Assembly: GCF_000003815.2 (NCBI RefSeq)
Contig: NC_049994.1
Coordinates: 6,544,858 to 6,608,857, forward strand
Reading direction: 5' to 3'
DNA from: Branchiostoma floridae
Taxonomy: Eukaryota > Chordata > Leptocardii > Amphioxiformes > Branchiostomatidae
Length of the DNA: 64,000 nt
In this document: piece after piece, positions 12,001 to 59,002 of the stretch
Layout of the letters: each line of letters starts with the position of its first letter
Position numbering within the stretch: the first letter of the stretch is position 1
Notes under the pieces: generated by a model
What the model saw: only the letters and a program-made list of their open reading frames with translations
Databases searched by the model: none
Told to the model about the DNA's origin: nothing
Made by a program: the position numbers and the translations under genes

Positions 12001-15000
12001 AGGTTATTTTTATTTACATATACCTGATCACCAAATCAGTTAAATATAGCTGTATGAATAATGAATATTGAATAACTATAGATATCTTGTTCAAATTATA
12101 ATATTTTCTCCATTTTCTAATGAATGGTATACAGACTCCTAACCGGGGGCCAACAGTGCTTTCAAATTCAACAAGTGAAAATTTACATGATACATGAATT
12201 TTCTACTCAGAACTTGAAGCAAGTAATCAATAAATATTTTTGTACATTACTTAGAATTACTGGCATATCAATAAAATCATTATAAATATAGCTCCAAGTA
12301 CTCAACCATATATGTTTTAGACATAACCACCAATTAAAACACACATCAACATTTCCAAAATGGACACAAACTGTTCACAAAGTTTTTGTGAGAGCTCGTC
12401 TGTGAAGTAGCCCAGCATTCAGGCCACAAATACTAAATATGTTACAGATTATATTTTGACACTAGAAACCGCTAAAATTAGAAAATTTTATGATTATTTC
12501 TGAAATTCAACACTCTGAAAATATATATGACATTTTGTGCCCATCATTAGGCCACACCAATTTAATTTCTTGGTTCACGGATTTTTTCATAAAAAATATG
12601 GAGCGAGAGGGCGAAATAAAAATAAAAATAAAAATTGTAAAATGGTTGGGGTAAAGGTAACGGCTAATCCAAAACATAAAGAAAAAAAGTTTTCAGCTTG
12701 AAAAAAGTACAAAAATACTATTTTTGTACAGTAACAGCACCTGTACCCACACTTTAAGGAGCTTATTATATAAAGGCCAATTTGCTACACCAGAAAGTTG
12801 GTGAATGGTTTCATCAATGGTGAAAATTTGCTGAGTGGTAATTTTTATTTTTATTTTTTTTCCCAAAAAATAGGAGCGAGCGAATCCGTGAACCAAGAAA
12901 TTAAATCGGTGTGGCCTTACACCGAAATAAAATCATTTTCACCCGTTTACGGCCTCATTTTAGTGATTCGAATCTGCATGCAACAGGGTGCTAGCTTTAC
13001 TGTCAGTGCGTGTTATTCCTGGCAGCCATGTTGGATCAGTTTCGGTCTTTTCTTCAAGTTTAAAGCTGTTTTTACGGACGGATTTCTGCTGTTTTTGGAG
13101 AATTTGCGGCCCCAAAACTCACATTACAAGGGAAAGAAGGTTCGAATTGTTGTTTCTTATGTGAAGGAATTATTCGTCCGCCCCGTTGACGCTGCCGATA
13201 GCGCATGGAACCACATGGTCGGAAAATTTATATACTGTACCTGTACATGCTAAAATTATGTGATCAGTGTGTTCATTTACGATGTAAATAGAGACTGTAA
13301 AAGTTGTTTATATAAAAAATTGTGCTTCAAAACGTCAGTGTGGCGGCTTATTTTCCCAATAATAACATTTACTTTGTACATTCATAGCGAAATCGACCGA
13401 TATTTTACATAATCGCTAGGATGTTTGGGTCACAGTGGAGGGGAAATCCGAGCCGCTTCGGCCAAAAATAGTGAATTTTGAGCAAAAATACCGCGGACAT
13501 ATGGACAGAAAACCCCAAACTTTTTATCATGCGGTTGTCCCTGGTCAGCAAAGCCCCAATTTTCAAAAAAATAATAAACGTACCGTCCCAAATAAGAACG
13601 TACCGGGTGGAATTTTCCTGGAAAAAAAATAAACGTCCCGGTACGTTTATTAGGGACATGAGAGTACGTGACCTGTTGCACACAGGAAATGATGATGTAA
13701 GGTGTCCACCTGTACTGATGATGCAACAGGGTATATGACCTGTTGCACACAGCAAATGATAATGTAAGGTGTCCAACTGTACTAATGATGTAATACTAAT
13801 TGTATACCGTAGAACCCAGTAGAAGTCTTTTTACTTACACGTGCACAGAAAAGAATGATAACACCTACCAAGACGAACATTTCGTATCTTCAAAAGCCAT
13901 TGTCCTCACAAGGGCAAGTTCAATCAACAGACAAAAGTGGGTATAGAACTTAGAAGGTACATATACTTTCTTGCCTACAATGTTTTTGAAGTTAGAATTT
14001 CTATCACTGATTATCAGGCTATGCACAGTCTCATCTCATATCTAAGCTCTCTGGGTTCAAGACTACAGTAGCAATAGACATTTAAGCTAAGAGGATCTTT
14101 AGAAGGAAATGTTATTTCTAAGGATAAGAGATAGCCTGTAGGGGGCAGGATGAACACTTGATCCTACCATGTTTCTTCCCCAGGAGCAGCTCTGGTGCCA
14201 GGTAGTCTGGAGTGCCCAGGACTCTACCATCCTCTTCCGGGGGTGCAGGGCCCCTACGCACGCTCTTGGGGGTCCTGAAGGGGGTTCTTGCAGGGGTCTG
14301 GTGGGGAGTTTTCTGTATCCAGCCCATGTTCTGCAATTTTTGGAATGTAAAAATATGCTATTAATGAGTGAACCACTGATCATTGAAGATTTGCTCAACT
14401 GCAGCTATATACTAGTATATATAATACACGTGTTAAAGCACTGTTTAATTGGTGCAATGGCCGAGTGTTCACCTTGCATTCGGTAGGTCATGAGTTTGAT
14501 CCCAGCCAAGTCATACCAAAGACTTTAAAAATGCTACATGCTGCTTTCTCTGCTTAGCACTCAGCACTAATGAGGAAAAGTATGTGTCCCCGAGTTAAAC
14601 ACACATTACTACCGGCAGACCAGCCCCATGCTGTAGTGGCTTTCGCAAATGTGTGGCCCAAGGGCTACAGAAATGGAGATTGGCTCTACCCCACCTCCAC
14701 ATCAGCACAGATGTATGTGCAACTTAAACTTTTTAAACTTAATTTGTTAAAGGTTTGCATGTACATGTATACCTGAGGTGTTCCTTTGGAATCCTTTCGG
14801 CCTCCATTCATTGGGGTCCCAAAAGGAGTGGTTGTCATTCCTACGCGATCCACACGTCCGTCCACACTACACACAGACGAGTCTGCCCCGGACGAGTAGT
14901 TACTGTGGTCGCTTCGTGCGTAGATCTCGCACGAGTCTCGGAACATCACCTCTCGCTTCGGCGTCTCCTTGATCATTCCCGTACTCTGCCGACGCGGCGG

Positions 15001-18000
15001 TGGATTTGACGCGACAGGATCCGCCGAACAGTCTTCCCAGATGACATCTAAGTTGTCGGCAGAATGGTTCAAGCTTCTTGAGCTCGGTCGCGAGTCTTCC
15101 TTCGTGTGGTCGAGACTTTCGATGGAATAGTTCATGTTGCGGGAATTTGGCCTCGAGTCGTCGTCCTCGACGCTCAACAGACTCATGTCGTGCTCTAAGG
15201 TTGTGTCGGCAGACTTTAGAGGAGACGTGACGTTATCACGTGGGGGAGGGGCATCTAACGGAAATGGCTGTGGGTGTGAGTCGATTGGGCTTGGCGGATT
15301 GCTAAGCATCAGGATTGGATCCATCTCATCCTCATTCCCAGTTGCCTGCTTTCTGGTGCTTTCAAATGGTCCATTTTTCTCTCTAACTTGATTTCTAGAA
15401 TAATCTTCTGAAGCGGATGTATTTTCCGACGAAGACGTTTTCGTGTTGGACTCTTCCTGGTATTTTCTGCAATTTTCTCTCTTATCATTTTTGTCAGCAG
15501 CTGAGTCAAGCATAGACTGCACAGAGATCCTGTCTAAGGCTAGAGTCAAGCCCGTGGACCTCAGAGGAAATGTGTCCTGAGTTTTGCATAGTTTGTCTGT
15601 CTTCTGCTCACCATTTTCCCATTCTGGGCTCAACTCTACCATCTCAAACGCCCTCTTCACTCCACCTGACCCGACTATGTCTCCCATGCACTTTGCACCC
15701 GGGTCATGACCTATCACCTTTGACCCATCACTGGTACCGTTGACACCAGAGTAGGAATGCCTCTTGATATGCGCAAATGCTTCCTTTTTTCTATCACTGC
15801 CACATACAACATTCCCTGACTCTTTCTCTGGAGAGAAAAACTCTTCCTCAGTCTCTATGATGGAGTCACTGTCGTCATGACCTACCACCTTTGACTTCTG
15901 ACCTGTGACACCAGGGTGAGGCTGCCTTGCATTCACTTCACAGCTTTCCATTTTTCTAAAGTGGTTCTGAAATGGTGCCACCGAGTCTTTTTCCGGAGAG
16001 AGGATCTCTTCGTCCGTGTCGACAACACACCCGCTGTCTGGGAGGGATGCAGTGCAGATGTCTTGTTTTGTGTTGTTTGCGTTAGCAGCATGATTCATGA
16101 AACTCTCTTCCCACTGTGGACTGCAACAGTTGGGCCAGGAGCTTGCCAGGGAGGAGAGGTTCAGAATGGCCTTCGGGGAAATGTTCCTTGCTGGTGTGTC
16201 TCTCCTAGGGGTTTCCAGATGCATGATGTCTTTATCAGGGTGTACCGCTGGGCTAGGGGTCCTCAGTTTGGCCGCGCTCACGTCTGATGTTGTAAACACA
16301 TTGTCTGAACCTGCAGAGCCAATCCTTTCGCCTACCTTCCTTGATGAACTAGCTCTTGTTTTTGATTGCACAACCAGGAAATTCTGGTCTAACCCAGACT
16401 CCTGCGTAGGGGCATCCCCTCGATCTGAATTGCACCATGGGATGGACTTCCCAGAAAGCTTTGCGCCACTTCCTGTGGAGGAACGACTTCCGTCTTTGCC
16501 AAAAAACATGGAGGAAACCGAATTCTTGGACGGTGGGCCTTTCCCAAAGAAGTTTATCTCACTCGTGGACGAATCGGGACAACTGCTTGCCTCTCGGAGG
16601 GTTGGTGTGAGGCATTTCACTGGAGAGGGCTCTACAAAACTAGAATCTAGCAGTCTGGGCTTTAAAGGAGCACCTCTGGTCACAAGACTTTTCAGCACAC
16701 TGCAGACACTTCCATAAAAGGAAGAGCCACTAGCTGATTGGTTGGTGCCTCTGGAGCTTGCTGATTGGTTGAGACTGAGGGGGCTTGAGTGAACAGAGCT
16801 CATTGGGCTGTCCTTCATGCACTGACGAAGCTGCTTGTGTTTTGCTACAGGAGTGCCTGATTTTTGTGCACTCTACAGAAAGAAGGAAAAAGGGGAATTA
16901 TATAGGAAGTCCATTATTGCATGACAAAATTGCATAAAGGTTGCTTTCAAGATGAAACTTTGAGACTAAGACTGCAGATTTAGTTGTTTTTAACATTCAT
17001 AGCAGTAGCAACAATAACATTATACTACTTTTAAATAGAAGTCTGAATGAAAAGCCAAAAATCTGTGTAAAATAAATGTAGCAATAGAGCTGTGTACCTA
17101 AACAAATTTAAGGTACAGGTATAGGTACACGGGTTTAGGTACAGGTCTGGAACTTTACCTGTACCTAAACAAGTTTGATCAATTATCTGTAAGTTATAAA
17201 TGTAGCCAACTGTCTTTTTATGTGAGAAATTATTATCTCTGTATGAGGTTTGAGGTATTCAAAACAATGTTTCCTACTTTCCTTCATGTTCAACTGCAAG
17301 GTAATCACAATAAATTGTCATCTTTGATTTGGAATTTACTTATCTTTAGTCTCAAAAAGTGGCGTTCAATAGTGATTAGTTTGTTAAGGTACATGTGTTT
17401 AGGCCTGGACCTGTACCTAAACAATTTAAAAGGTACAATACAGGCACAGGTATTTTAGGTACACAGCCCTACTTAGATAAAAGGTTCAGCAGTAACGTAA
17501 AGATATCTATCAGACTTACGAATGACAAGGCCATTGTGAGAGACAACAGTTGTCCTGGTGTGCGGTTGTAGTCGTTACTCGTTTTCACCTGTGATGGAGT
17601 GCCCATCACATCTGCCATGTTGATTTCTGGTCAAGAATAAAGAAAACATCCATTGTAGAATAGTTACACATATGATATATAACATGTTGTGCATAGAAAA
17701 CATATTCTAAGTGTAGGAAAAATACCCCCACCTAACTCCTGCTTTGCCCCGTTATCCTCATTCCTTGTAATAAATCTTTAGACTGAGAAGGATTTATATA
17801 AATTATAATGCAATACTTTTGTCTGCATACCTGAAACATTGGAAATTACCTGCACCAGACAAATTCTACCTGCACCACTCAGAAGTATTGAACATACATA
17901 ATCTGTTCAGAAATTATTGTCATTATCTATTTCATACTCCACAGTCAATGATACCATGAATCCATAATACAGCAAATTAGTATCAGTACATATTATAAAA

Positions 18001-21000
18001 ACAGTACATGGACCAAGGTTAGGTGCAGGTAGACACAAGAAGTACCTGCACAGCTCGAGTTTTACTTGCACTAACCTGTATAAACCAAGTTCATGAACCA
18101 GTGCAGGTTAGGTGCAGGTAGACACCAGAAATACCTGCACAGATTCAATTTTACTTGCACTAACCTGTATATGCAGGTGGCATTTTGAGCCCTGTAAAGG
18201 CACTTGTAATGAGGTTCAGAATGTGTACCAGACCATCGGTTACCTAAGATTCCTTGACACGATCTTTAGTCTTATCATTACTTTGAGTTTGAGGTCGAGC
18301 TGCTAATATTTAAGACAGCATGGACCTGTAAATGTACCTCTATTCAGGTTGAACTTGGAAAGTCCAAAGTCAGTCAGCTTGATGTGCCCATTGTTGGTGA
18401 TGAGCATGTTGTCAGGTTTGATGTCCCTACAAGAGAAGAAATTAAAAATCTTCAATGTTCAACTTACGTGGAGGTGTAATAGAGTGCAGTATGGCATGTA
18501 CACTCATGTCTAGAAGATACCAAACTTGTAAGTCACTCTCACTTAGTTCTGAGATGGCACAAGGAACACTGTGAGCAATGACCCCAGGAGAGGCTTAATC
18601 ACCGTTCCTCCGGTGGGGAGCAGGGCTCTTTGGTCAGAAAGCACGATTCTCTGGTCACTGTACAAGGACATAACCATATTTGGGACACAGTCCTGTGGCT
18701 TTCCATCAACTGCCCAGGATATAAGTCATCATGATTAAGACACAGAAAAATGTAACTTTCACTAATAGATAAGGAAACATATAAATAGTAGAGCAGCATT
18801 ACTGTAGAGAGTTCAGATTGGAGTGAGAGTTAAGATCAGAGAGAGAGAGAGGGTGAACAAAGAAGTACCGACGTAGCACCGACTCCTCGTGTTTTTCTTG
18901 GGTTTTGCATGTACATTTAACATTGGCAGCTAATCGCACTAACTCCATGTAAGGGACGCCATCGAAACCAGCTACCACACTACCACTACCCTCACAGAGG
19001 CAAAAAGCTAGTACTAGTATATGACATTCAATGATTGTGTGAAATTATTATCTTCTATATCTTATCCAATAGGACTTTTCTGTATCTAACAGTGCAAAAA
19101 TAATTATGGATCACATGTTATTCACAACTACTAGTACTTACCTCCCCTAGGGCTGGGTACACTGTAAGCATCATAAGGACTGTTACTTTGACAGTATATC
19201 GCATGCATGGGCATGGTGCTTAAATTGTAAGTAGAAACTAATAAGTACATATGTAGGTAGATATCAATACTGTATACAATAAACTCTATACTACTTCACT
19301 CATTTTTTTAAGGTCAGGCTCTGTTAGTTGGCTATATCATGTATGATATACCAATTATACTACAATTAATTCATACCAGCTTATTCAACACCAGATCAAA
19401 ACTCGGTCATATGCCTTAACCACTATAATTAGTATATATAAATACAGTTTAACTGCACAGCCTATTTGCCAGTGTATTTCGTGCAATTATCCAGCTGCAC
19501 CACACCGGTTTGGTTGGAATTTTGCAATTCCGTGCAGTTTATAGAAGTGTGCGTTAATCTGTTGTGCAATTTACTGGCTTCTACTAGTACTGTACTATAA
19601 AATAATCTAACAGGTGCCTTCCTGTCCACACTTACCTGTGAATGATGCCATGACCATGTAGATACTTCAGGGCCAGGATAACTTCTGCTGTGTACATGAT
19701 GGCCATGTCTTCATCAAAGTACCCGTAGATGTGTAACAGGGACTTCACATCCCCTCCTATCAGGTATTCCATCACCTAGGGTGGGGTGGGGGCAAGTGTC
19801 ACATGCTTTATTCAATTTCTATAAATTAGAAGCCATTTAATTACACACCTCATTCGCCAGCATATTTCATGCAATTAGCCAGATGGTGCAACAAAGGGAA
19901 ATTATCCAGCAAGACCACACTACCAGGTAGGATTTGGTGACCCTGTGCAATTAACAGAAGTGTGTGATTATCTGTTGTGCAATTAACTGGCTTCTACTAT
20001 ACTGTAAATCACAAAATTTTGTAGCAACTTTTTTTTTTCTGGTGACCTCTCTGACCTGAGTTCATGACACCTTGGACATGTATCGACTCCCTTCTAGCTA
20101 TGACTACAGACTACAGAGTGCAGTAAGTACTGCAATTACAAAATTGTTCAAACGAAAAGTTTCTAGAAACTTTAGAGATTAAACCACCATCCAATAACAA
20201 CACTTACTGAAAGTCTACAGTTAAACATACACAGTACAATTTTGTCTTTTACGCCCGGCATTGCACAGGCCAAGAGTAACTACATTCTTTGTACACTACC
20301 AATCGTTTTATCTGTTTGAAGAAGAATAAAAAAACAGAGAAAAAACAATGTCGTGAAGGGGAACATAACGAATGAATGTCACAAACACAATATTGTAAAA
20401 TAAGGGACACCCTTACCAGATAGATGTTTTGTTTGGACTGCAGAGAGTAGTAGAGGTGAACGATGAAGGGACTTTTGACCAGAGCCAGAGCGTCTCTCTC
20501 TGCGATGGTCTGATGAACCATGTTCTTCTGCACCATGTCAGCCTTTCTCACCACCTGCAGGATATACAGAGATTACAGAGATGTAGCGTTCAGCTTGGAA
20601 TCTAGAGGTCCTGAGTTCCATACCCGCCGTGCCCCAGACGTTGTGCCCTTCTGCACCATGTCTGCTTTTCGCACAACCTGCCGGATACAAAGAGATTACA
20701 GAAATGTAGCGTTCAGCTTGGAATCTAGAGGTCCTGAGTTCCATACCCGCCGTGCCCCAGACGTTGTGCCCTTCTGCACCATGTCTGCTTTTTGCACAAC
20801 CTGTCGGATACACAGAGATTACAGAAATGTAGTGTTCAGCTTGGAATCTAGAGGTCCTGAGTGCCATACCCGCCGTGCCCCAGACGTTGTGCCCTTGGGA
20901 AAGGCACTTTACATGACCTTTCTCACTTCACCCAGTTGGAAAAATGGGCACTGTACTACTAGTACCTGAATTGGGATGGGGTTTTGTGCGCGTGAAAAAT

Positions 21001-23182
21001 GTGCGCGTGAAAACTTGCGCGTGAAAAATCTGCGCGTGACAATATGCAAATTAGCTGATTCCCAAGGGATTCAAAAAATATTTGCAGTTTTAAACTTAAA
21101 AAGCTGAAACAAGATGGCACAGAATGGAATTAAGTATTGTATTGTTGCATTCTAGGGTACAAAATGTCGATCTGATTGATTTTCAAGTGATTTTCAAATG
21201 TTAAGTTTTCACGCGCAAAAAAGTTTGAAATCTGCGCGTGAAACAATCTGCTTCAAAAAAGATGAAATGAAGCTTCTAGAATGGAGAAAAGCCTCAAATT
21301 GTAACATTTTACAATATAAAACCTCATACACACACGTACAAGTAATTTTTCCATGTTATTTCTGTGCTATTAATGGGATTTTGGATTGTTCAAAATATGC
21401 AAATGAATCTATTCCCAAGGGATCTAAAAATCAGGATTTTTTCAAACCAAAAATTCTGGTTACATATGGGAAATTATATCATAGGATCAAATTTTTCTGC
21501 CTTAGAATTCCTTGCTGCACATTTTCTGACATATTTCAGGAACTTTATTTTTTCACGCGCAAATTTTTCACGCGCACGCGCAAATTCTCCACGCGCAGAA
21601 AACCCGTTCCCCCTGAATTCGGTCAGGGAGGTAAAATTTGACCCTTACAAAATTGTTGTTTTTCCCTGACTGGGGCTCAGAGACTGCTATGGTAATTTCA
21701 CAGTAATTTTATCTGTCAAAGTGGCCATCCCCTGACCTGTTATCTTGCAGTGCCTGGCTTGCACTAATTACATACAGGTCCAGTGGTACACCAGTGTTCC
21801 GGTATTTTGTACCTGTACCTAATTGATTGTACCAGTACTGTATTGGTACACTGTACTGGTACACAGCTCTACTAGTACATTTTGTTTTTGTACTACTTTT
21901 ACCTTCCGTCTGTACTACTTGTATATGTGGCACAGTTAATATAAGTTACAAACTTGAGTGCAGTGCCACATTGTCATTGTCTACATCCAAAACCAAATAA
22001 AAAAAAGAGAGATTACAAAGTACAAAATAATATCAGCTATCGCAGTTTTTGTTTACATCCGTTTTTTTTACGACTGGCATGCAATAGGCAGGCAAAATGA
22101 TTAGCATATGTCATTGGATAATCTGATTATTTGATATTCAGCTTAGAGAATCAACAAGTAAATCTTTTGTCGACAATCTGCCTTTTGTCTACCACTGCGT
22201 CACTTATTGTCGCACTCATATACAATATCTCAAATGAATTGCAATTGGACTCATTAAATAGGCATGAGTATAACATATGATACTCAGACATTTACTTTTT
22301 AGCCAGGCATGTGTCCAGGCATCATTTGGATGTGCCGTTCTAAAAATGATAAGAAATTTGACGCTCTACACACTAAGATTGAAATACAATAGGGCCCTGG
22401 GGGAAGATACCATGGAAAGCCTGAAATTCTGATTTTTGGAACCATTAATTATAATAAAATCCTAGCAAAAAGCCTGATGAAACTGTATTTGATGTCTGTT
22501 AGTGTTAATGATTCTAGTTTCTACCCCTGGACCATGATATTTGTGGGTTTGGAACTTTGGATGCAAGACAAGTCAGACAATTGTCAACTTGTACCATGGC
22601 TAGTCTGAATAAATTCAAGGAGGTTGAAAAGAGGTGGCAACATAAAATCTGCTGTTTATTTACCCAGTAACTGAAGATTTCGAGGTATATCTGGAAATCT
22701 GACTGCAACCAACTTGTCTGAAAATTGTAGACAATAGTTTCATTTTGTCCATGAAATCAACAGAATAGGAACTTGTCAAAACGTTTCAAAAGTGTTGGCA
22801 ATTTCCTTTTGTTTGTCCTTTTCACAACAACATGTCAAAGGTCAATAATAAGCAAGCAAACAGGCCAGGTCAGGCAAGTCCGGGCAAGCATGTGCGCATT
22901 TAGGAACAACAAAACCTGTAAAACATCTTCTCAGAACGAAAAAATACACACACACATTTGATTCACAACGCTTGCCAAACTAATTTTGCCTACCTTCATG
23001 GCGTACAACTTCTGGTTGTTCTTCTTTCGTGAAAGAAAGACCTTTCCAAACGCGCCCCGGCTGATCGGCTTCAAGATCTCAAAGTCGTCGATATTTGGGG
23101 CTTTCGGAACCTCCACTTTGGTCTCCTGCGAGTTGAAGACTCCAGGTGTGACAGGAACAACATTCTCCTTGTCTTCAGACAT
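8895..23182 (-). CDS. MASTL: Greatwall kinase MASTL, 10 coding exons
   Basis: Serine/threonine kinase of the AGC group that, in known animals, phosphorylates ENSA/ARPP19 to block PP2A-B55 and allow mitotic entry. Joined exons give 3,300 nt, 1,099 residues (human is about 880; the excess lies in the middle region). Visible landmarks: glycine loop GAFGKV at 43-48, lysine AMK at 63, helix-C Glu82, HRDIKPDN at 155-162, DFG at 175-177, then a long insert to about residue 940 that splits the kinase fold (the Greatwall hallmark), and GTPDYLAPE at 960-968. TP sites at 195, 208 and 941 (RTPKSVRR) match known activating positions. The C-tail ends in [13 protein letters not shown] with Ser1095 at the known tail-phosphosite position. 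The start ATG has A at -3 and an in-frame TAG 15 nt upstream. All introns are GT-AG. Head-to-head with the plus-strand gene at 23,670. Confidence 0.97.
9420..9610 (+). mobile_element. 3' end of a non-LTR retrotransposon (likely)
   Basis: In MASTL intron 9, antisense to the gene: a stretch ending TTGTTGAGCAATAAAATTTA, typical of short LINE 3' ends with a weak A-rich tail. No coding part is attached. Confidence 0.4.
9790..9891 (-). CDS. MASTL: MASTL coding exon 9 (residues 1014-1048)
   Basis: 102 nt with acceptor TTTACAG and donor GTAAAG, phase 1. Encodes [20 protein letters not shown] and the end of the C-lobe ([12 protein letters not shown]). Confidence 0.95.
10024..10450. mobile_element. 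TAGCCTGGG element with 9 bp TSD
   Basis: TIRs TAGCCTGGGTACCATCCG and CGGATGGTACCCAGGCTA; exact 9 bp TSD GTGTTGCAA on both sides (10,015-10,023 and 10,451-10,459). Lies in MASTL intron 8. 427 bp, no coding content. Confidence 0.85.
10547..10721. mobile_element. ACAGTAGAAGCC MITE, copy 1
   Basis: Ends ACAGTAGATGCCAGTTAATT and TTAAGCGGCTTCTACTG, with repeated TTGCAC / GTGCAA words inside. In MASTL intron 8. Copies at 19,443 and 19,827. Confidence 0.65.
11069..11182 (-). CDS. MASTL: MASTL coding exon 8 (residues 976-1014)
   Basis: 114 nt with acceptor GTTTCAG and donor GTGAGA, phase 1 on both sides. Encodes helix F and following: [20 protein letters not shown], with the structural Asp and Trp pair of the kinase C-lobe. 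Confidence 0.96.
11212..11842. repeat. Degenerate roughly 66 bp repeat, CCTGTTGCACACAGGAAATG
   Basis: Copies at about 11,240-11,300, 11,770-11,842, 13,671-13,730 and 13,738-13,800. Each has CCTGTTGCACACA(G)GAAATGATGATG, then GGTGTCCACCTGTACTGATG. The 1.8 kb element at 11,843 separates them. Confidence 0.6.
11843..13663. mobile_element. 1.8 kb TIR element, ACTCTCATGTCCCTAATAAAC
   Basis: TIRs CTACTCTCATGTCCCTAATA at the left and TATTAGGGACATGAGAGTA at the right. Just inside each end are repeats of AATAAACATACC / GGTACGTTTATT. It sits inside the 66 bp repeat array of MASTL intron 7 and contains a PIF-like MITE (12,550-12,916). No transposase frame is visible, so it is non-autonomous. Confidence 0.65.
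12550..12916. mobile_element. PIF/Harbinger-like MITE, copy 1
   Basis: TIRs begin GGCCACACCAATTTAATTTC and extend about 40 bp through TTGGTTCACGGATT. TSD TTA on both sides. Internal word AAAATTGTAAAATGGTTGGG. A 3 bp TWA duplication is characteristic of PIF/Harbinger. Confidence 0.8.
14168..14330 (-). CDS. MASTL: MASTL coding exon 7 (residues 922-976)
   Basis: 163 nt with acceptor AAATTGCAG and donor GTAGGA. Encodes the re-entry into the kinase fold: [18 protein letters not shown], then [17 protein letters not shown]. The APE motif and P+1 loop are intact, and Thr941 aligns with the conserved RTPKS site. Confidence 0.96.
14448..14700 (+). mobile_element. tRNA-derived SINE, second type
   Basis: In MASTL intron 6, antisense to the gene. 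A-box-like TGGCCGAGTG and B-box-like GAGTTTGATCCC, then a body with TGCTTAGCACTCAGC, TAGTGGCTTTCGC and AAGGGCTACAGAAATGGAG. It stops close to the exon 6 donor. Confidence 0.6.
14773..16872 (-). CDS. MASTL: MASTL coding exon 6, long middle region (residues 222-921)
   Basis: A single 2,100 nt exon, open throughout, acceptor TTTCTGTAG and donor GTATAC, phase 0 on both sides. It encodes almost all of the non-conserved middle region: Ser/Thr/Pro-rich, predicted disordered, with many SP/TP sites. [11 protein letters not shown] (about residues 627-637) matches a short block also present in vertebrate MASTL (KRNFELVDSSP). It contains two in-frame internal duplications (residues 500-611 and 790-834). 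One exon of this size among exons of 89-189 nt is what gives the protein its extra length. An antisense ORF over this exon is a shadow. Confidence 0.96.
17085..17471. mobile_element. hAT-like MITE with GGTACAGGT words, copy 2
   Basis: Same family as 8,434-8,839: TAGAGCTGTGTACC at one end and GGTACACAGCCCTA at the other, with the same middle (TTTGATCAATTATCTGTAAG). Located in MASTL intron 5. The flanking TSD is no longer clear. Confidence 0.75.
17520..17626 (-). CDS. MASTL: MASTL coding exon 5 (residues 186-221)
   Basis: 107 nt with acceptor TTGACCAG and donor GTAAGT. Encodes the start of the activation-segment insert: [12 protein letters not shown] and [12 protein letters not shown]. Thr195 and Thr208, each followed by Pro, align with human Thr194 and Thr207. 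Confidence 0.95.
17822..18194 (+). mobile_element. CAGGGCTCGAAA MITE, 5'-truncated, in MASTL intron 4
   Basis: Ends GGTGGCATTTTGAGCCCTG. It has the family middle (CAGTACATGGACCA) and many ACCTGCAC words. The right end is duplicated in tandem: GTGCAGGTAGACAC and the following roughly 80 bp occur twice. Confidence 0.7.
18338..18426 (-). CDS. MASTL: MASTL coding exon 4 (residues 156-186)
   Basis: 89 nt with acceptor TCTTGTAG and donor GTACAT. Encodes the catalytic loop DIKPDNML and the DFG motif (KLTDFGLSK). The position equivalent to human Glu167 (in NEGHIKL) is Asn here (NNGHIKL). Confidence 0.96.
19443..19592. mobile_element. ACAGTAGAAGCC MITE, copy 2
   Basis: In MASTL intron 3: starts ACAGTTTAACTGCACAGCC and ends TGGCTTCTACTAGTACTG. 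Shares TTCGTGCAATTATCC and AGAAGTGTGCG..ATCTGTTGTGCAAT with the other copies. Confidence 0.6.
19636..19775 (-). CDS. MASTL: MASTL coding exon 3 (residues 110-156)
   Basis: 140 nt with acceptor CACCCTAG and donor GTAAG, ending two bases into the Arg of HRD. Encodes the hinge ([14 protein letters not shown]), helix E and GHGIIH. The reading frame joins exon 4 to complete HRD. Confidence 0.96.
19827..20005. mobile_element. ACAGTAGAAGCC MITE, copy 3
   Basis: In MASTL intron 2: starts TAGAAGCCATTTAATTACAC and ends TTAACTGGCTTCTACTATAC. Same orientation as copy 2. Confidence 0.65.
20417..20554 (-). CDS. MASTL: MASTL coding exon 2 (residues 64-109)
   Basis: 138 nt, phase 0 on both sides, acceptor ATCCTGCAG and donor GTAAGG. 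Encodes helix C and the hinge approach: [20 protein letters not shown], with Glu82 pairing with Lys63. Its acceptor and first ten codons are repeated twice more just upstream in intron 1 (see the 123 bp tandem array), but only this copy continues into the kinase sequence. Confidence 0.96.
20525..20893 (-). repeat. Three 123 bp tandem units over the MASTL exon 2 acceptor
   Basis: Units start at 20,525, 20,648 and 20,771, exactly 123 bp apart. Each holds the exon 2 acceptor AG and its first ten codons on the minus strand (copy 1 = real exon, [10 protein letters not shown]; copy 2 [10 protein letters not shown]; copy 3 [10 protein letters not shown]) plus a SINE-like piece (GAGGTCCTGAGTTCCATACC, then CCGTGCCCCAGACGTTGTGC). 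After unit 3 the SINE core GCCCTTGGGAAAGGCACTTT continues. Confidence 0.85.
20894..20940 (+). mobile_element. SINE core fragment after the 123 bp array
   Basis: CTTGGGAAAGGCACTTTACATGACCTTTCTCACTT is the same core as in the tRNA-derived SINEs at 35.7 and 49.7 kb, so a SINE took part in forming the array. Confidence 0.55.
20968..21626. mobile_element. TIR element with GCGCGTGAAAA word arrays
   Basis: Left end CTGAATTGGGATGGGGTTTT and right end AACCCGTTCCCCCTGAATTC are inverted partners. Inside the left end GCGCGTGAAA(AA) occurs four times in a row; inside the right end its complement TTCACGCGC is repeated, and single copies lie between. In MASTL intron 1. No transposase frame. Confidence 0.7.
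22994..23182 (-). CDS. MASTL: MASTL coding exon 1 (residues 1-63)
   Basis: 189 nt, starting at the ATG and ending AAG before donor GTAGGC, phase 0. Encodes an acidic leader and the first N-lobe strands: [18 protein letters not shown], ending on the catalytic lysine in YAMK. The residues around the glycine loop ([10 protein letters not shown]) are the same as I recall for vertebrate MASTL. Confidence 0.96.
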
Positions 23183-23669
23183 CGTGTGAACGCTCTAGAA
23201 AGATCTTAACGCAGCAAAAAGGTGGACACAGTTGTCTTTGTCTCACTTTCCGCCATCTTTAACATTTTGAAATACGCGCCCAAAGCATGCTGGTTCAGAC
23301 TATTCCATTATTTCAAGATAGGGATAGATATCTTCTATAAAAAAGTGATTGAGTGGAATAAAGAATGATCATTGATACAGAAATAAGTCCAACATGATAT
23401 TATTTTGATGATTGAAACTTGCTAGACTAGTTATGATTTCGATGAGTCGCTATATTTGAAAATACCCCGTTGTTATCACTGGGAAGGTCCAAGAAAGATA
23501 AACCTTAATTGACCAATCAATACCCAGTATTTGCTCACATGACTCGGGTCATGACCGCAACCATCTGGGCTCCTTGATGAAAAGTGAAAGTGATCAACAC
23601 AAGAACATAATGCCATCGATCGCCGAGAAAGCGCCTCGCCGTCAGCTAGAGCGCTAGCTAGCTGTCGCG
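23183..23669. promoter_or_regulatory. Divergent promoter region, MASTL and plus-strand gene
   Basis: 487 bp between the two start codons. On the MASTL side, minus-strand AAGATGGCGG at 23,250-23,259 resembles a YY1 site, often found just after the start of transcription. Next to it, 23,266-23,284 holds TTTGAA (the CHR word of cell-cycle genes) three bases from CGCGCCCAAA, an E2F-like site. A CCAAT box lies at 23,513-23,517. No TATA box is evident next to either start. MASTL is a G2/M gene in known animals, so CHR/E2F control is plausible. The functional reading is inference. Confidence 0.5.
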
Positions 23670-26121: not shown

Positions 26122-27206
26122 GTAACCATGGAAACCTTGGGAGGGGTAACCATGGAAACCTTGGGAGGGGTAACCATGGAAACCTTGGGAGGGGCAACCT
26201 TGGAAACCTTGGGATGGTTACCAATAACTTACCATGGAAACCTTGGGAGGGACAACCATGGAATCTTTGGGAGGGACAGCCATGGAAACCTTGGGCAGGG
26301 CAACCCTGGAAACCTTGGGAGGGGCAACCATGGAAACCTTGGGAGGGGCAACCATGGAAACCTTGGGAGGGGCAACCATGGAAACCTCAAGGGAGGGGCA
26401 ACCATGGAAACCATGGGAGGGGCAACCATGGAAACCTTGGGAGGGGCAACCATGGAAACCTCAAGGGAGGGGCAACCATGGAAACCTTGGGAGGGGCAAC
26501 CATGGAAACCTCAAGGGAGGGGCAACCATGGAAACCTTGGGAGGGGCAACCATGGAAACCTCAAGGGAGGGGCAACCTTGGAAACCTCAAGGGAGGGGCA
26601 ACCTTGGAAACCTCGGGAGGGGCAACCATGGAAACCTTTGGAGGAGCAACCTTGGAAACCTTTGGAGGGGCAACCTCGGAAACCTTGGGAGGGGCAACCA
26701 TGAAAACCTCGGGAGGGGCAACCATGGAAACCTTGGGAGGGATAACAATGGAAACCTTGGGAGGGGCAACCATGGAAACCTTGGGAGGGATAACCATGGA
26801 AACCTTTGGAGGTATAACCATGGAAACCTTGGGAGGGATAACCATGGAAACCTTGGGAGGGATAACCATGGAAACCTCGGGAGGGGTAACCATGGAAATC
26901 TTGGGAGAAGTAACCATGGAAATCTTGGGAGAGGTGTCCACAGAATGCTTGGGAGGGGCAACCATGGAAACCTGAGGAGGGGCAACTTTGAAAACCTGGG
27001 GACAGGTTACCATATAGAAAGCTTGTTGTTACCAAGGATACCTGGAGAGGGGAAACCTTGGTAACGGGGAATTAAGGGTTACCGTAGAAAGCTTGGGTGG
27101 AGTTACCATGGAAACCATGTGATGGAAACCTGGTTAGAGAATACCATGGACACCTGGGGAGGGTCAACCTTGTAAATCTGATGAGATATGACCGTGGAAA
27201 CCATGG
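26122..27206. repeat. 24 bp minisatellite (CAACCATGGAAACCTTGGGA GGGG)
   Basis: About 35 units of 24 bp, with some 26 bp variants containing CTCAAGGGAG. Units are regular to about 26,990 and decayed after that. All six frames stay open over most of the array, because 24 is a multiple of 3 and the unit has no stop in any frame. The predicted peptides are 8-residue repeats (GNHGNLGR; GQPWKPWE; GATMETLG). No splice or start context supports translation; I call it non-coding. Confidence 0.9.
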
Positions 27207-27252: not shown

Positions 27253-27455
27253 AACGCTAGTTCACCTTTATCTGCGGGGTAACCTATATCCGATTCCGTT
27301 CTCAAAACTGGGTATTAATTAGGGCTATCGTGCCGACAAAATGTGTTCAAACTGCTATATTACAATTTGAAACAACGGTCCGTCGACTTGATATCCCTAA
27401 ATGCACTGTTCAGAAAAACAATGGGTTACACCATTGATAAAGGCAAACAAGCGTT
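27253..27455. mobile_element. AACGCTAGTTCACC palindromic MITE, copy 2
   Basis: Left end intact (AACGCTAGTTCACCTTTATC), right end diverged (GATAAAGGCAAACAAGCGTT). It abuts the 24 bp minisatellite. Confidence 0.7.
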
Positions 27456-27867
27456 GTCTCCAAACTCAATACAAGTCAGAGAGTCAGAAAAACTTTTACA
27501 TGATAAGATAGCTCAGATGCAAAGTCTTAGAAAGGGTGATACTAGCTAGTTTTCCTAAGACAAAAACAGTACTAAGTACTTCCTTCATCTTTTATCATAA
27601 TGGTGCCATTTCTTGCGGGAAATCAAATGATAACGTTTTGTTAATCTGCAAAAGATGGACAGGAAGTGATTGTGGAAGGGAGGTTTGTACTTATCAAAGT
27701 TGAACAGTGCTTCCTTTCACAGGAAGATGCCAGCTTTCAGACAGGCTTCTGTTTAAGTAAGACTGCTCAACGTTGCACGTTTCTTAATGAACTCAACAAG
27801 AGCATCAATATCTACATTACAGGTTTATATACTACTCATCTGAGCATACTTTAAAGTAGAAGTATGT

Positions 27868-28071: not shown

Positions 28072-28736
28072 AGTTTCATTACAGTGGTATGTACCAAAGT
28101 GCTGTATTTTGTCATAGAAAAAAATAATATCAGAGCCAATAAAAATGATGACGTCATCAATTTGGCCCCCCAAAAAATCAGATTTAGAATTCTGTAATGC
28201 CCATCTATCAACATTCGTTACGGCTCCATTCTTTCTTAATTCATTAATAAGAAAACATTTGAAGGTCAAAATGCCAATTTAGCCAACCGATTTACCTTAA
28301 GTGTACAAATGTAGTTGTCTCAGAATAGAATTATTGTACCATACTGATATATGTTGTATCAAGGCAATGGAGAATTGAAGATACTGTATAATTTTGCCTT
28401 GCATACTAGCCATGAAATTGATGAAGGAGGAGGAGAATGGTTTTCTGGTTCCCTTTGAAAAATGATGCATTGTTGAAAGTATAAAAGAAAGCCTAGTTTG
28501 GTCTTTAGCTGCAAGCTGTATTATTGTCTCTGGAAGGTACTGCCTGAATCCAAATCCCATGGATTGATATGTCAAGCATGAGGAATATCCAGCTATATAG
28601 AAAAGAATTGGTAATACTATCTGTATTTCTTGGAGCGGAGGCAAGCTCTTAAGAAATCTTTGAATGTGTCTTTGTAGTTATCTGCTGACAAATTGGTCTT
28701 GTTCAAGTTGTTGAGATATGGTAATGCCTGTGTTAA

Positions 28737-29030
28737 GGCCACACCAATTTCATTTGTCGTTTCTTGGATTTTTGCCGGAAAAAATTGGGTCGGTCGGTCG
28801 AAAAAAAAAATTGTTAAAAAAAGTCCAAAGTTTGAAAAAAAAAGTTAAACGACCATCAATAGGCTTGTACAGCTACTGGAATTTGAGGCCCATAGTTGAT
28901 TTGAGATAGGAAAGGCAGTGAAATTTTGTCAGAATGAGGTGTGGCCATCAATTTGAAAAGTTTTTTTTCTTTTTCAAATAAAAAAAAGGGTCGGGAAATC
29001 CGAGAAACAACAAATAAAATTGGTGTGGGC
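28737..29030. mobile_element. PIF/Harbinger-like MITE, diverged copy 5
   Basis: TIRs GGCCACACCAATTTCATTTG and its inverted partner, TSD TAA. A second subfamily, with TCGTTTCTTGG in place of TTCTTGGTTCACGG. Confidence 0.7.
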
Positions 29031-30149
29031 TAATGTACACTGTAGGTCGGTCTGAGATTCACTGAGATTTATTGGTGTATACATGTACACACTGGTGTAT
29101 CAGGTAAAATGCTGCTGTATGCTAAATCTACTTTATATATATATATAGCGCTTGGTCTCGTTTGCCCAAAGACATCTCCAACAAGTAGGGGAGCATTTGT
29201 TTTAGAATAGAATATCTTGGAGCTGTACCAAGGTTTCTAGAAGTCTTCACGGTATCTTAAGTAATGCAATAGTATCTTGAGAATACTGTTCATCCATTAT
29301 CATATATGCACAGAAGGAGCTGTAGCTAGGTACTGACCTAAACTAATGCTCTATTCTACTGATTGACAGATCTGATATACACATGTATCATTACAAAAAG
29401 ATTATCTATTGTTTTTTTCTTCATTTTCTAATTTTTTTCTTGAGTCGTGTACACATTTTTTTATATCCTTATATTCTTTTAATGGAAATTCTCACAAGAA
29501 TCATTTTCTTAAGAAACTATTTCTTACCAGGATTTTCACTCTAAAGAATTTCAAGTTTTTTCTTGATCATGAAACACTTAACTTGTGGACAGAATGTATT
29601 CTTAAATAGCAATTGTATCTAACTTACTTAAGAAAATTATTCCCTGTATAAAAAGAAAGAAGAAAAATAAGATTAAGGACATTTTTGTAGTGATACAGGA
29701 ATTTTTGGAATATGTTGCTTTAGGGTTGTGGTAACTTTCCTGACGTTTTGACCTATGATACATACATGTACTACATTTAGACAGAGGAGTAAATTACATT
29801 TCTGTCCCTGTTTTAGAAAGGAATGATTTGGAAGTAATAGTCATTTCAAGGGTCCAGTAATTTAATTGTCTTACTTCCCTGACCGATGCTCACAGGTTCA
29901 ACTTGATTATAATGACCCCAAATCTTGTAATAGTTGTAGATTAATCTTTCTATGGACCACCTCTAACAAGGTTACATCTTCAGTAATCCTCTGAGATTCA
30001 AATCTTATGCCATTTCATCCTTCCTCAACCTAATTAGATCATGCAAACTCAATCTTGTAGCTAATGGACATGAATACACATTATTTTTTTTTAGATGATA
30101 TCGTAGAAATGAAAATAGCCAGGGATCTGAATTTTGTACGTTATTATTA

Positions 30150-30225
30150 GGCCACACCAATTTCATTAGTTGCTTCACGGATTTGCCTGTCCATTTTTCG
30201 TTTCATTTTCAAAAATAGAAAATAA
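30150..30225 (+). mobile_element. PIF/Harbinger-like MITE, half copy 6
   Basis: Left end only (GGCCACACCAATTTCATTAG, preceded by TTA). It is cut off where the CTCCATGAAA element begins. Confidence 0.6.
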
Positions 30226-36222: not shown

Positions 36223-36666
36223 TATAAATGTATGAGCCTTGCATCTTTAATAAGAACACAAGTAGTATACATGTACGTTCAGTCATAATCATATGCAGAA
36301 AAATTAACATACAGTAACTGGTAACAATTAATAGCCCCCTATATGATGTTCTAGTAGTGTCCAAATTTAAAGTGTCAGTGGCCATGTGCACACTCAGTGA
36401 GAGCAAAATGTCCCAGACATACTAGGATTGCAATGAATAATTAAGCTTGTCGCTTGCAGAATTCCCTTGGGCAATATTCTTCTTGTACTTTGTGATAGCT
36501 GATTCGTTCTAAGGATGTCTTCATTTACACTCTGCATAATCTTCCCATTCCTGTTCACACTTAGCAACAAAAAGGCATCTTTCTTTAAGCTAACAAGATT
36601 GGCCAAAGACTGAAGACCTAACCACAACCTGGAGTGTGGTTGGCTCTTCCTGTTTTAATCAAGTAA

Positions 36667-37028
36667 GGCCACACCGATTTAATTTCTTGGTTCACGGATT
36701 CACTCGCTCCTATTTTTTGGGAAATTAAATGAAAATAAAAATTACCACTCAGCAAATTTTCACCATTAATGAAACCATTCACCAACTTTCTGGTGTAGCA
36801 AATTGGCCTTTATATTATAAGCTCCTTAAAGTGTGGGTACAGGTGCTGTTACTGTACAAAAATAGTGTTTTTGTACTTTTTTTCAAGCTGAAAACTTTTT
36901 TTCTTTATGCTTTGGATTAGCCGTTACCTTTACCCCAACCATTTTACAATTTTTATTTTTATTTCGCCCTATCGCTCCATATTTTTTATGAAAAAATCCG
37001 TGAACCAAGAAATCAAATTGGTGTGGCC
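36667..37028. mobile_element. PIF/Harbinger-like MITE, copy 2
   Basis: Same TIRs, TSD TAA at 36,664-36,666 and 37,029-37,031. Inverted relative to the 12.5 kb copy. Confidence 0.8.
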
Positions 37029-37336
37029 TAAAGTGTCAGTTACTGGGTATCATGATGAATGAAGAAGGGATATCATTTCAGACCATCTCTTGCCTGTCTA
37101 CTGTGCTGTGCTGATAAGTCTAAAATCCTCTCGCCTATTTCATTAGAACTGACATTTTTCTTCAGTTAGTGATAGTAATACCTCAGATTTCTGCATAACA
37201 AAACACAGAATTGTACAAGGAAGCTCTCGCTCTTATCCCATATACAAAGTTTCAACCTTATATATCAAGCTTAACTTATGGTTCTACTCAAGAAGGTTTG
37301 TTTTTAAGCTTAATCTTGTTGTTTTACTTGAAGTAT

Positions 37337-38712: not shown

Positions 38713-39193
38713 GGACAAGGTAGACATTTGTATTAAGTTCAAGTAAAAGAGAATTTCCGTCACAATAGTTCGAACTTATGTTGGAAACTTTTTGAAAGCA
38801 AAGGTACAAATTATTTAGAACAATTTTCAAACATCAATGTGGACAGTTGTGGTTCTTTGTGGGAAGCTGGCAGACAAACATAATTTCCTGTACTTGGCAG
38901 GAATGTGAGAATTGTCCTCTTTCCCATCCCACTGACCAAGATACAAAATACTGTATCAATGTTTCAACAAATGACGAATCTTTGTTGCAACAGTTTAGAA
39001 ACTAAAAGAAAGAAATGTATTTGATGTTAGAAATGTTTCTAACATGTATGATTACTTTAGAAAATATTTAGAACGTCAAACAGATGTTATGAATAGTTCT
39101 AAACAGTTTCTTATCACAGTTAGATTGTTATAAAGATTTCCAAAATGTTACATCAAAAGAAAAATACCCTCTTGGTAATGTGGAATTGTCTCT

Positions 39194-39683
39194 CAGGGCT
39201 CAAAATACCACCTGTGTATAGTGCAAGTAAAACTGGAGCTGTGCACTGCCAGGTATTTCTGATGTCTACCTGCACCTAACCTGCACTGGTCCATGTACTG
39301 GGTTTTATACATGAATGTCATATGATGTAGGTATATATGGATTGTTATTAGCTGCATTGACTGTTGCCACCTATAAAATATTTTTAAAAAAGAATAGCAA
39401 TTATGGTTCTTGAACAATTTTAGTATGAAAAGTTCTTGAACAATTTTAGTATGAAAAAAGGCGCTCAGGTATTATGAAAAGGCACTGCAGATGAGCCGGA
39501 GTATCTACGGTGAGGACACTGTACATCCTGACATCGCCAGATCACTTGACAGCTTGGGTATCGCCTGGGGCAATTGATCCATACTTCCTAAATTGTGGTG
39601 CAGGTAAAATTTGTCTGGTGCAGGTTATTTTCGTTGTTACCTGCACCAGTGCAGGTATGCAGAAAAAAGTATTTCGAGGCCTG
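39194..39683 (-). mobile_element. CAGGGCTCGAAA MITE carrying a TPR unit
   Basis: Inverted copy: CAGGGCTCAAAATACCACCT to AGTATTTCGAGGCCTG. Compared with 53,628-53,957 it has an extra block at about 39,453-39,574 that encodes a tetratricopeptide unit, plus a 26 bp tandem doubling of AGTTCTTGAACAATTTTAGT just before it. Confidence 0.8.
39455..39574 (+). pseudogene. Single captured tetratricopeptide (TPR) unit, 40 codons
   Basis: 120 nt in one frame, starting [13 protein letters not shown], then [19 protein letters not shown] and LGIAWGN, directly followed by TGA. This is the 42-residue TPR pattern of kinesin-light-chain and NLR-type arrays (YYEKAL..YGED..HPDIA.SL..LG). No start codon or second unit follows, and it lies inside a MITE, so it is a captured fragment, not a gene. 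Confidence 0.8.
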
Positions 39684-39858
39684 ACTCTAGATAGCTATGG
39701 AAAGATACATATATGCTGGAGATTGTTAATATCCCAGACACACTTGTCTGCTCACGTAACAAATCACGAGGTAACACCTTTAGATCTGAAGAACGTCACT
39801 CTGTGGCAGCTACGTGACTTGACTCAGCTCTGAAGGTTTGCGTGGCTCTGTTCAGTAA

Positions 39859-40307
39859 GGCCACACCAATTTAATTTCTTGGTTCACGGATTTTTTCATA
39901 AAAAATATGGAGCGAAAGGGCAAAATAAAAATAAAAATAAGAATCGTAAAATGGTTGGGGTAAAGGTAAGGGCTAGTCTAAAATATAAAGATTAAAAGTT
40001 TTCAGCTTTAAAACAATACAAAAACACTATTACTGTACAGTAACAGCACCTGTTTGTTGAAAATTACAAAAGTAGTGTCAGTTTTTATGTTTGTCCCATT
40101 CTTCATGAATGAAAAATATAACTTCAATGATAATACCCACACTTTAAGGAGCTTATAATATAAAGGCCAATTTGCAACACCAGAAAGTTGGTAAATGGTT
40201 TCATTAATGGTGAAAATTTGCTAGAGTGGTTAACTTTTATTTTTATTTTTTTTCCAAAAAATAGGAGTGAGCGAATCCGTGAACCAAGAAATTAAATTGG
40301 TGTGGCC
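39859..40307. mobile_element. PIF/Harbinger-like MITE, copy 3 with insertion
   Basis: Same TIRs and TAA TSD. It has about 80 extra bases (TTTGTTGAAAATTACAAAAG onward) placed between GCACCTG and TACCCACACTTTAAGG, which are adjacent in copy 1. Confidence 0.8.
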
Positions 40308-40327
40308 TAAGGGCCAAATAAACTGGA

Positions 40328-44432: not shown

Positions 44433-44795
44433 CAGGGCTCGAAATTCATTTTTGGGATTAGGTGCACTGGTTCACCCAGCTTAAAAAATTGGGTGCATCA
44501 AAAATGTTTGTATGCACCACTTAAATTTAAGTAATAACCTAATAATAAAACTTAGTTACAAGCTTTCACACTCTTAAACATTCATTGACAAGTACCATGA
44601 CAGACATTTTTACTATCTTTCTAACACTTTCTTAGATGTCAATAGTATGATGTATACTAGTATACTTTGAACTTTTCATACATAAACGTAAGAAAATATT
44701 TGGGTGCCCCCTGTGCACCCACAGAAAATAATTGGGTGCACAGCTCCAATTTTGGGTGCACCTGGGTGCACATGCACCCAGTATTTCGAGCCCTG
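44433..44795 (+). mobile_element. CAGGGCTCGAAATTC element with GGTGCACC words
   Basis: TIRs CAGGGCTCGAAATTC and AGTATTTCGAGCCCTG with a perfect 5 bp TSD ACTGT (44,428-44,432 and 44,796-44,800). Repeated GGGTGCAC / GTGCACCC words inside both ends. Its right end is 15 bp from the next CAGGGCTCGAAA element. Confidence 0.8.
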
Positions 44796-44810
44796 ACTGT
44801 GGTTCCTCTA

Positions 44811-45143
44811 CAGGGCTCGAAATACTTTTTCTGCATACTTGCATTGAAAATTAACTGCACCAGACAAATTTTAACCTGGTGTGCACTACTCTACACTACT
44901 AAAATTATAGGATCATACTAAAGCTGTTCAGAAACCATTGCTATTTTTTCTTAACACTTAATAGTTGGTACCAGTCAATGCAGTTAATAACAAATCCATA
45001 TACACCTGCATCATAGGACATTAATGTATAAAACCCAGTACATGGACCAGTGCAGGTTAAGTGCAGGTAGACGCAAGAAATGCCTGCACAGCTCCAATTT
45101 TACCTGCACTAACCTGCATATGCAAGTGATATTTTGAGCCCTG
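44811..45143 (+). mobile_element. CAGGGCTCGAAA MITE with 5 bp TSD
   Basis: CAGGGCTCGAAATACTTTTT to ATATTTTGAGCCCTG, flanked by CTCTA on both sides. ACCTGCAC / GTGCAGGT words lie inside both ends. Confidence 0.8.
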
Positions 45144-45739: not shown

Positions 45740-46288
45740 CGAGGGGCGGTCAATAAGTAATGCCCCTGACCCACTTCCAGTCGTCTGATGAAATTTTGTC
45801 TGTGTAATGATTCATATCTTTATGTTGCAAAAAACAGCTCTGAACTAATTGTGGTTTTTGATTTACTGGTGTTTGAACTGAGTCAGGTGCGAAATGGACC
45901 AGGTGTGAAATGGAACCAGTTGAGTGTCGCGCAGTGATCCGGTTTTTGTATTTGAAAGGACGCACCCCAAAGAAGATTTTTGATGAAATGAAAGAAACTT
46001 ATGGTGATGATGCCCCATCATATGACCTTGTAAAATGCTGGCATCCTTCAAACATGGCTGGAAGTCTGCGGAAACAGCTCCCTCCCTCTTCTGCCATTGA
46101 TGAGGCATTTGTTGGAGGACCAACCTGGAGTGTCCTACAAAAACGGTGTCCAGAGCTGCATCAAACGATGGGAGAAATGCATAACTCTGGGTGGTTCCTA
46201 TGAAGAGAAAGACTAATAACTGTGCCAAGTTTCATTAATCTCCTGCTATGGAAAATGGGTCGGGGCATTACTTATTGACCGCCCCTCG
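45740..46288 (+). mobile_element. Internally deleted mariner element with transposase relic
   Basis: TIRs CGAGGGGCGGTCAATAAGTA and TACTTATTGACCGCCCCTCG, each next to a TA target site. Inside, a frame from 45,910 reads like the N-terminal helix-turn-helix of mariner/SETMAR-type transposases (ECRAVIRFLYLKG, then DDAPSYDLVKCWH). After about 46,140 another frame reads the transposase C-terminus (SCIKRWEKCITLGG) to TAA. The catalytic middle is gone, so it cannot move itself. Confidence 0.85.
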
Positions 46289-49845: not shown

Positions 49846-49925
49846 CCAAACAACAAACCTGCATCTGCTTGGGCCGTCTTACATGTGGCATGCAGTTCTA
49901 GTCCCTGTGGTACTTAATGCGCTAA

Positions 49926-50240
49926 GGCCACACCAATTTAATTTCTTGGTTCACGGATTTTTTTCATAAATAATTTGGAGCGAGAGGGCGAAATAGAAAT
50001 AGAAATAAAAATTGTAAAATGGTTGGGGTAAAGGTAAGGTCTAATCCAAAACATAAAGAATAAAAAGTTTTCAGCTGGAAGAAAGTACAAAAGACTATTA
50101 CTGTACAGTATGTTTGCTACACCAGAAAGCTGGCGAATGGTTTCATTTATGGTGAAAATTTGCCGAGTGGTAATTTTATTTTTTTTCCAAAAAATTGGAG
50201 CGAGCAAATCCGTGAACCAAGAAATTAAATTGGTGTGGCC
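49926..50240. mobile_element. PIF/Harbinger-like MITE, copy 4
   Basis: Same TIRs, TSD TAA on both sides, shorter middle. It immediately precedes the exon-like island at 50,246. Confidence 0.8.
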
Positions 50241-50245
50241 TAATA

Positions 50246-53627: not shown

Positions 53628-53957
53628 CAGGGCTCAAAGTGCCACCTGCATATGCAGGTTTAAGTGCATGTAGATTGAAGCTGCGCAGGTATTTCTGATG
53701 TCTACCTGCACCTAACCTCACTGGTCCATGTACTGGGTTTTATTATATGATGTAGGTGTATGTGGATTTTTACAAGCTGCATTGACTGCTACCACCTATG
53801 AAGTATAAAAGAAATAATAGCAATGGTTTCTGAACAATACAGTATGATCCGTACTTTCTTAATTTTGAGTGGTGCAGGTAAAATCTGTCTGGTGCAGGTA
53901 ATTTCCAATGTTACCTGAACCAGTGCAGGTATGTAGAAAAAAGTATTTTAAGCCCTG
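53628..53957 (-). mobile_element. CAGGGCTCGAAA MITE, intact reference copy
   Basis: CAGGGCTCAAAGTGCCACCT to GTATTTTAAGCCCTG; flanks ATCTA and ATCTG. It serves as the empty-site reference for the TPR-carrying copy. Confidence 0.75.
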
Positions 53958-58695: not shown

Positions 58696-59002
58696 CAGGG
58701 ATCGAAATACTTTTTCTGCATACATTTGTACCTGCACTGGTGCAGGTAACATTGAAAATTACCTGCACCTGACAGATCATTCGAAAATTGTTCAGGAACC
58801 ATTGCTATTTTTTTCTTATATCTTCTATAGGAGGTAACAGTCAATGTAATGAATCCATATAAACCTACATCATAGGACATTTATGTATAAAACCCAGTAC
58901 ATGGACCAGTGCAAGTTAGGTGCAGGTAGACATCAGAAATACCTGCACAGCTCCAATTTGACCTGCACTAACCTGCATATGCAGGTGGCATTTCGAGCCC
59001 TG
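58696..59002 (+). mobile_element. CAGGGCTCGAAA MITE with 5 bp TSD AGTAA
   Basis: CAGGGATCGAAATACTTTTT to GGCATTTCGAGCCCTG, flanked on both sides by AGTAA (58,691-58,695 and 59,003-59,007). Confidence 0.8.

Follow-up and report, generated by a model that had tools for sequence, protein, structure and literature searches.

A partial TPR-coding piece within a hAT5-like MITE of Branchiostoma floridae: probably a one-off break-repair patch

Results

The window analysed here, a 64-kb stretch of Branchiostoma floridae contig NC_049994.1, contains a MITE that holds a short block of TPR-coding DNA, together with other copies of the same MITE family, a second MITE family and a kinase gene (Table 1). 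The borders of the insert-bearing MITE are exact, its ends read CAGGGCTC...GAGGCCTG, both of its arms are present, and the TPR piece lies inside the element, as had been proposed in an earlier reading made from the sequence only.

Table 1. Coordinates of the features discussed, as positions in the 64-kb window.
Feature	Position	Strand	Basis or remark
Insert-bearing MITE copy, hAT5-like	39194..39683	+	sister-copy alignment; profile match to both arms, each once
Left target-site duplication, TCTCT	39189..39193	.	4/5 bases match the right one
Right target-site duplication, ACTCT	39684..39688	.	
26-bp doubling, first copy: MITE sequence to AGTATGA, then AAA	39406..39431	+	Tandem Repeats Finder; AGTATGA begins at 39422
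26-bp doubling, second copy; end adjoins TPR codons	39432..39457	+	AGTATGA begins at 39448
In-frame TGA before the block	39452-39454		
Foreign block: AAA and 39 codons of kinesin-light-chain-type TPR	39455..39574	+	
In-frame TGA after the block	39575-39577		
TGATCC, MITE sequence resumes	39575..39580	+	TGA repeats 39426-39428
Sister MITE copy c53628+, insert site unbroken	53628..53957	+	alignment and profile
Sister MITE copy c45143-, insert site unbroken	44811..45143	-	alignment and profile; flanks TAGAG/TAGAG
Sister MITE copy c59002-, internal deletion	58696..59002	-	alignment and profile; flanks TTACT/TTACT
More diverged MITE copy c18194-, without TPR	17805..18194	-	5' arm doubled, 3' end degraded
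MITE family member	44795-44433	-	flanks ACAGT/ACAGT, read by eye
MITE family fragment	42217-42095	-	starts past the insert site
Two adjoining MITE family members	44433-45143		
Second MITE family, copy just downstream	39858-40308		35-base perfect inverted ends (AGGCCACACCAATTTAATTTCTTGGTTCACGGATT)
Inner 80 bases of that copy	40054-40133		
Second MITE family, close relatives	12549-12917; 36666-37029; 49923-50243		
Second MITE family, weaker relatives	28734-29033; 30147-30186		
Greatwall (MASTL) kinase gene	14121-23194	-	
Greatwall frame	22937-23194	-	best PDB match Greatwall kinase, E 1.4e-10
Greatwall frame	20252-20572	-	best PDB match Greatwall kinase, E 2e-19
Kinase-like frame	14121-14357		recognised by eye
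728-residue open frame	14689-16872		no Pfam match
Three 123-bp tandem copies	20525-20896		
Open frame	20517-20969		only weak Pfam matches: GST_N_3 0.004, HA70_C 0.0076
24-bp minisatellite region	26122-26998		about 31 copies at 26231-26986
Open frame	27319-27546		weak Pfam match: EF-Ts_N 0.0056
Open frame with mariner-type HTH	45877-46200		HTH_48, 1e-7; also Clr5, 0.02

Two frames identify the Greatwall gene, in keeping with an animal source. The kinase-like frame suggests that the gene reaches to 14121; its long middle region may correspond to the 728-residue open frame. Three tandem copies overlap the 5' part of the Greatwall frame at 20252-20572, and it would seem from these that part of the exon is repeated upstream. 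The minisatellite is open in several frames on both strands, and the mariner-type HTH is that of Mos1-type transposases. A Pfam search of 10 chosen open frames of the window returned nothing in 8, and a search of three other window frames returned nothing in two.

The MITE family is represented in the window by seven copies or fragments, six of which reach the insert site; the family profile was built from three of the window copies, and those three match it by construction. The members are short, lack coding capacity of their own, bear terminal inverted repeats and occur in several copies, as MITEs do, and the four copies that have both ends and no insert measure 307-363 bp. The family ends are CAGGGCTC / GAGCCCTG, with variants, the right end being GAGGCCTG in the insert-bearing copy, GATCCCTG in c59002- and AAGCCCTG in c53628+. 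The flanks of four copies (TCTCT/ACTCT, TAGAG/TAGAG, ATCTA/ATCTG and TTACT/TTACT) match at 18 of 20 bases when taken at length 5, which was not attained in 20000 random draws, while in the four copies repeats of lengths 2-4 and 6-10 are at chance level. Given these 5-bp target-site duplications, hAT5-like would be the best filing of the family, hAT5 being hAT families with 5-bp duplications (PMC12730594).

Two family members that belong to different subfamilies (41.5% divergence) lie 15 bases apart and point in the same direction, and each has its own 5-bp repeat. Within the second MITE family, 80 inner bases of the copy just downstream of the insert-bearing MITE are absent from the relatives at 12549 and 36666, and the relative at 49923 is without a longer stretch.

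Relative to the unbroken site, AGTATGATCC, which the alignment shows in both c45143- and c53628+, the insert-bearing copy has a net gain of 149 bases: 26 from a doubling, 120 from the foreign block (AAA and 39 codons) and 3 from a repeated TGA. None of the MITE bases at the insert site has been lost. The sequence-only reading had described about 120 extra bases that read as TPR codons and then TGA, with AGTATGA before them, TGATCC after them and a 26-bp doubling alongside, and all of this is borne out. It had compared them with c53628+ as a clean copy; the site is indeed unbroken there, but the insert-bearing copy has three close sisters, and c53628+, one of them, is missing 10 bp present in the other two. 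The doubling consists of 2.0 tandem copies that are 100% identical (Tandem Repeats Finder), and the AAA at 39455 is at once the start of the foreign block and the end of the second doubled unit. A repeated TGA does bound the captured piece, as had been pointed out, but a 3-base repeat arises by chance in about 1 of 64 cases and is weak evidence.

Since an in-frame TGA stands on both sides of the block, the TPR piece cannot be read into the adjoining sequence unless it is spliced. The GC content is 53.5% in the block (39459-39572) against 39.8% elsewhere in the element, which is in keeping with foreign coding DNA. The block is found in one of the seven copies or fragments of the family in the window.

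The 39-residue peptide matched Pfam families TPR_12 (E 1e-4) and TPR_10 (E 1.5e-4), both below the Pfam curated cut-off, as is to be expected of so short a piece; the best non-TPR family was UBA_RAD5A, at 0.11. None of nine residue-shuffled peptides matched any TPR family, and a single one had a match to DUF6900 (0.039). At E up to 0.1 the peptide matched 22 PDB sequences, all of them designed or consensus TPR proteins or kinesin light chains 1 and 2, with a best E of 9.9e-6 that is a score summed over several repeats, no single stretch being below the limit alone. At E up to 1 it matched 8 of 72,556 plasmid records (best 0.01; identity 38-50%), annotated as tetratricopeptide repeat in five cases, as CHAT-domain in two and without a listed gene in one; TPR-CHAT genes are described as expanded in corals (PMC12314368).

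A TPR profile was made from 13 bacterial units recognised by the motif HP-x-V/I/T-A; of four plasmid loci retrieved, three supplied these units. The profile contains no window sequence, but it is not wholly independent, as the plasmid proteins were found with the peptide itself. When this profile was run against the 2869 stop-free six-frame pieces of the window, the insert scored 32.3 bits (E 9.1e-9) and the next-best piece 4.6 bits, and the best of 20 Markov-simulated windows reached 10.2 bits. Neither the profile search nor tblastn (best non-self E 0.41) found a second TPR in the 64-kb window, nor did the block have a second match there that could be its donor. A neighbouring intact set of TPR exons, which the sequence-only reading had named as the observation that would tell against it, is thus absent from the window.

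That reading had gone on to describe the captured piece as exactly one TPR repeat unit, which does not stand. The block spans positions 21-54 of the 77 of TPR_12, running from the last part of one repeat into the first part of the following one, and its 39 residues make up most of a period, out of phase, incomplete and closed by stops. In the plasmid TPR proteins, the spacing between units is a multiple of 42 residues in 9 of 10 cases, and G-x-E-H-P is read in 11 of 13 units, against G-E-D-T-V-H-P in the insert; judging from this spacing and the longer motif, the unit of the insert's own TPR would presumably be 44 residues long.

Against its three closest sisters the insert-bearing copy shows differences at 43 of 293, 50 of 318 and 51 of 313 sites (15-16%), and the chance that a doubled 26-mer of that age would stay identical is P 0.010-0.016. 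A perfect doubling in a copy that has diverged this far from its nearest relatives looks younger than the spread of the MITE family, and the capture of the TPR piece looks likewise younger if it was one event with the doubling. What this timing argument dates is the doubling; it extends to the TPR piece on condition that a single event made both, and gene conversion, by holding the doubled 26 bp identical, could spoil it.

Other copies have inner scars of their own: in c18194- the 5' arm is doubled, and c59002- has a deletion. This deletion starts at the point corresponding to the entry of the TPR piece in the insert-bearing copy (AATGATCT, then the gap), perhaps a fragile place in the MITE.

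Discussion

The element, its sister copies, the insert and its TPR nature, the junctions and the doubling are directly observed. Break repair with template switching leaves lossless insertions, a few shared bases and local re-copying. Taking into consideration that: (i) the block is TPR and no second TPR was found in the window, (ii) the site is unbroken in two sisters and all MITE bases are kept, (iii) a perfect doubling adjoins the block while the sisters differ by 15-16%, (iv) the block is GC-richer than the rest of the element, as foreign coding DNA would be, (v) other MITE copies bear internal scars of their own, and (vi) such patches are a described class, the class 2 templated sequence insertions (PMC5110952); we consider it probable that the locus holds a one-off break-repair scar within an old MITE, where a scrap of a TPR gene was patched in once. 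Break repair had already been suspected from the doubling; it is the likeliest maker of this structure, and the lossless junctions and the adjoining doubling support it.

The break, the template switch, the timing and the donor are what we infer. A short hAT5-like MITE would have landed at the locus and later suffered a break between AGTATGA and TCC. The broken end would have gained about 117 bases of a TPR exon, by copying or by joining, from another place in the genome. Such a templated insertion might have come about through polymerase-theta end joining, through microhomology-mediated replication or through the uptake of a cDNA piece, and the patched end would then have rejoined the MITE without loss of MITE bases. 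The doubling could belong to the same event, the end having been copied twice, or to later slippage, and the product would be a dead scrap with stops on both sides, from which no function is expected. Against the one-off patch it must be said that copying from a presumed donor elsewhere is unproved, that the repeated TGA, 3 bases long, may be a very small target duplication instead, and that the arms and the near-matching target repeats are intact, so that movement with the insert is possible.

A variant of the same reading has the TPR piece enter once and the 26-bp doubling follow as a separate scar, by replication slippage. The doubled unit includes the AAA ahead of the TPR codons, which is absent from the unbroken site, and this AAA was therefore present before or during the doubling; however, the doubling stops exactly where the TPR codons begin, and we regard separate scars as rather unlikely. 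Were they separate, the capture could be older than the doubling. An origin as a class 1 templated insertion, that is, a reverse-transcribed cDNA piece inserted by retroelement machinery, would agree with the coding sense of the piece and with the short TGA repeat at both borders. Class 1 insertions are described as having target duplications of 5 bp or more, typically together with a poly(A) tract (PMC5110952), whereas the block has a repeat of 3 bases and no poly(A) at its 3' end; such a retro-insertion is disfavoured and we hold it to be quite improbable. Very improbable indeed is insertion of the MITE into a TPR exon or pseudogene already present at the locus, or an assembly error at the join: the TPR piece lies inside the MITE, with the MITE arms and target repeats outside it, and the lack of a second TPR anywhere in the 64 kb led us to reject insertion into a TPR exon.

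The remaining explanation is a mobile carrier similar to Pack-TYPE elements, in which the MITE took up the TPR piece before landing here and has since spread it. Full ends and target repeats (4/5 bases) flank the loaded MITE, and plant Pack-TYPE elements of the hAT superfamily are described as carrying gene pieces (PMC8903248). The block is nevertheless confined to one of seven copies or fragments in the window and sits mid-element, and a doubling without mismatches speaks for a recent event at this locus. The uptake route described for plant Pack-TYPE elements is tandem insertion followed by re-mobilisation (PMC8903248), from which an element end would be expected at an inner border; none is seen, each arm matching once. 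We therefore judge a mobile carrier improbable, and find no support for the earlier suggestion that it would be a route for spreading TPR units, the piece being out of phase, shorter than a unit and closed by TGA on both sides, in a single copy of the window and beside a doubling that looks younger than the family's dispersal. It is hard to credit that the loaded MITE is still mobile and seeds TPR scraps at several loci, some of them joining TPR genes as partial repeats, as an animal Pack-hAT would.

The TPR scrap in the MITE has the look of a common kind of genomic scar, and no observation made here shows a spread of repeat units. As a case of gene capture by a repeat element it is tidy and legible, the empty site, the patch, the stop codons and the local doubling all being visible. 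Other loaded copies, if they existed, would point to a mobile means by which TPR pieces travel in animal genomes; nothing here shows that.

Compared with known systems, the family shares 5-bp target repeats with hAT5 MITEs (PMC12730594), and its CAGGG ends resemble the CAG(G/A)GG ends described for the hAT MITE Mar (PMC3517528); it differs from hAT5 MITEs in that its superfamily is assigned from ends and target repeats rather than from an identified transposase or autonomous parent. The insert has the YYEKAL...HPDIA.SL..LG pattern of kinesin-light-chain-type TPRs (Pfam TPR_12/TPR_10), but is limited to 39 residues and out of phase, and unlike the bacterial units (n=13) it has two extra residues ahead of HPDIA. 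As in the Pack-TYPE and Pack-hAT elements of plants, which are described as non-autonomous terminal-repeat elements holding coding DNA (PMC8903248), host coding DNA lies between terminal repeats; in contrast to them, the host is an animal, a single loaded copy is seen in the window, the inner borders show no element end and there is no sign of spread within the window. Human class 2 templated sequence insertions are described with NHEJ-like junctions, microdeletion, microhomology and added bases, and as free of target duplication or poly(A) (PMC5110952). The present case differs in its place inside a MITE, in not being human, in the local 26-bp doubling alongside and in a donor that is presumed; it resembles the class 2 insertions (TSI/TSIP) in being a short piece, presumably of a distant region, set into a locus, with NHEJ-like junctions and no poly(A) (PMC5110952).
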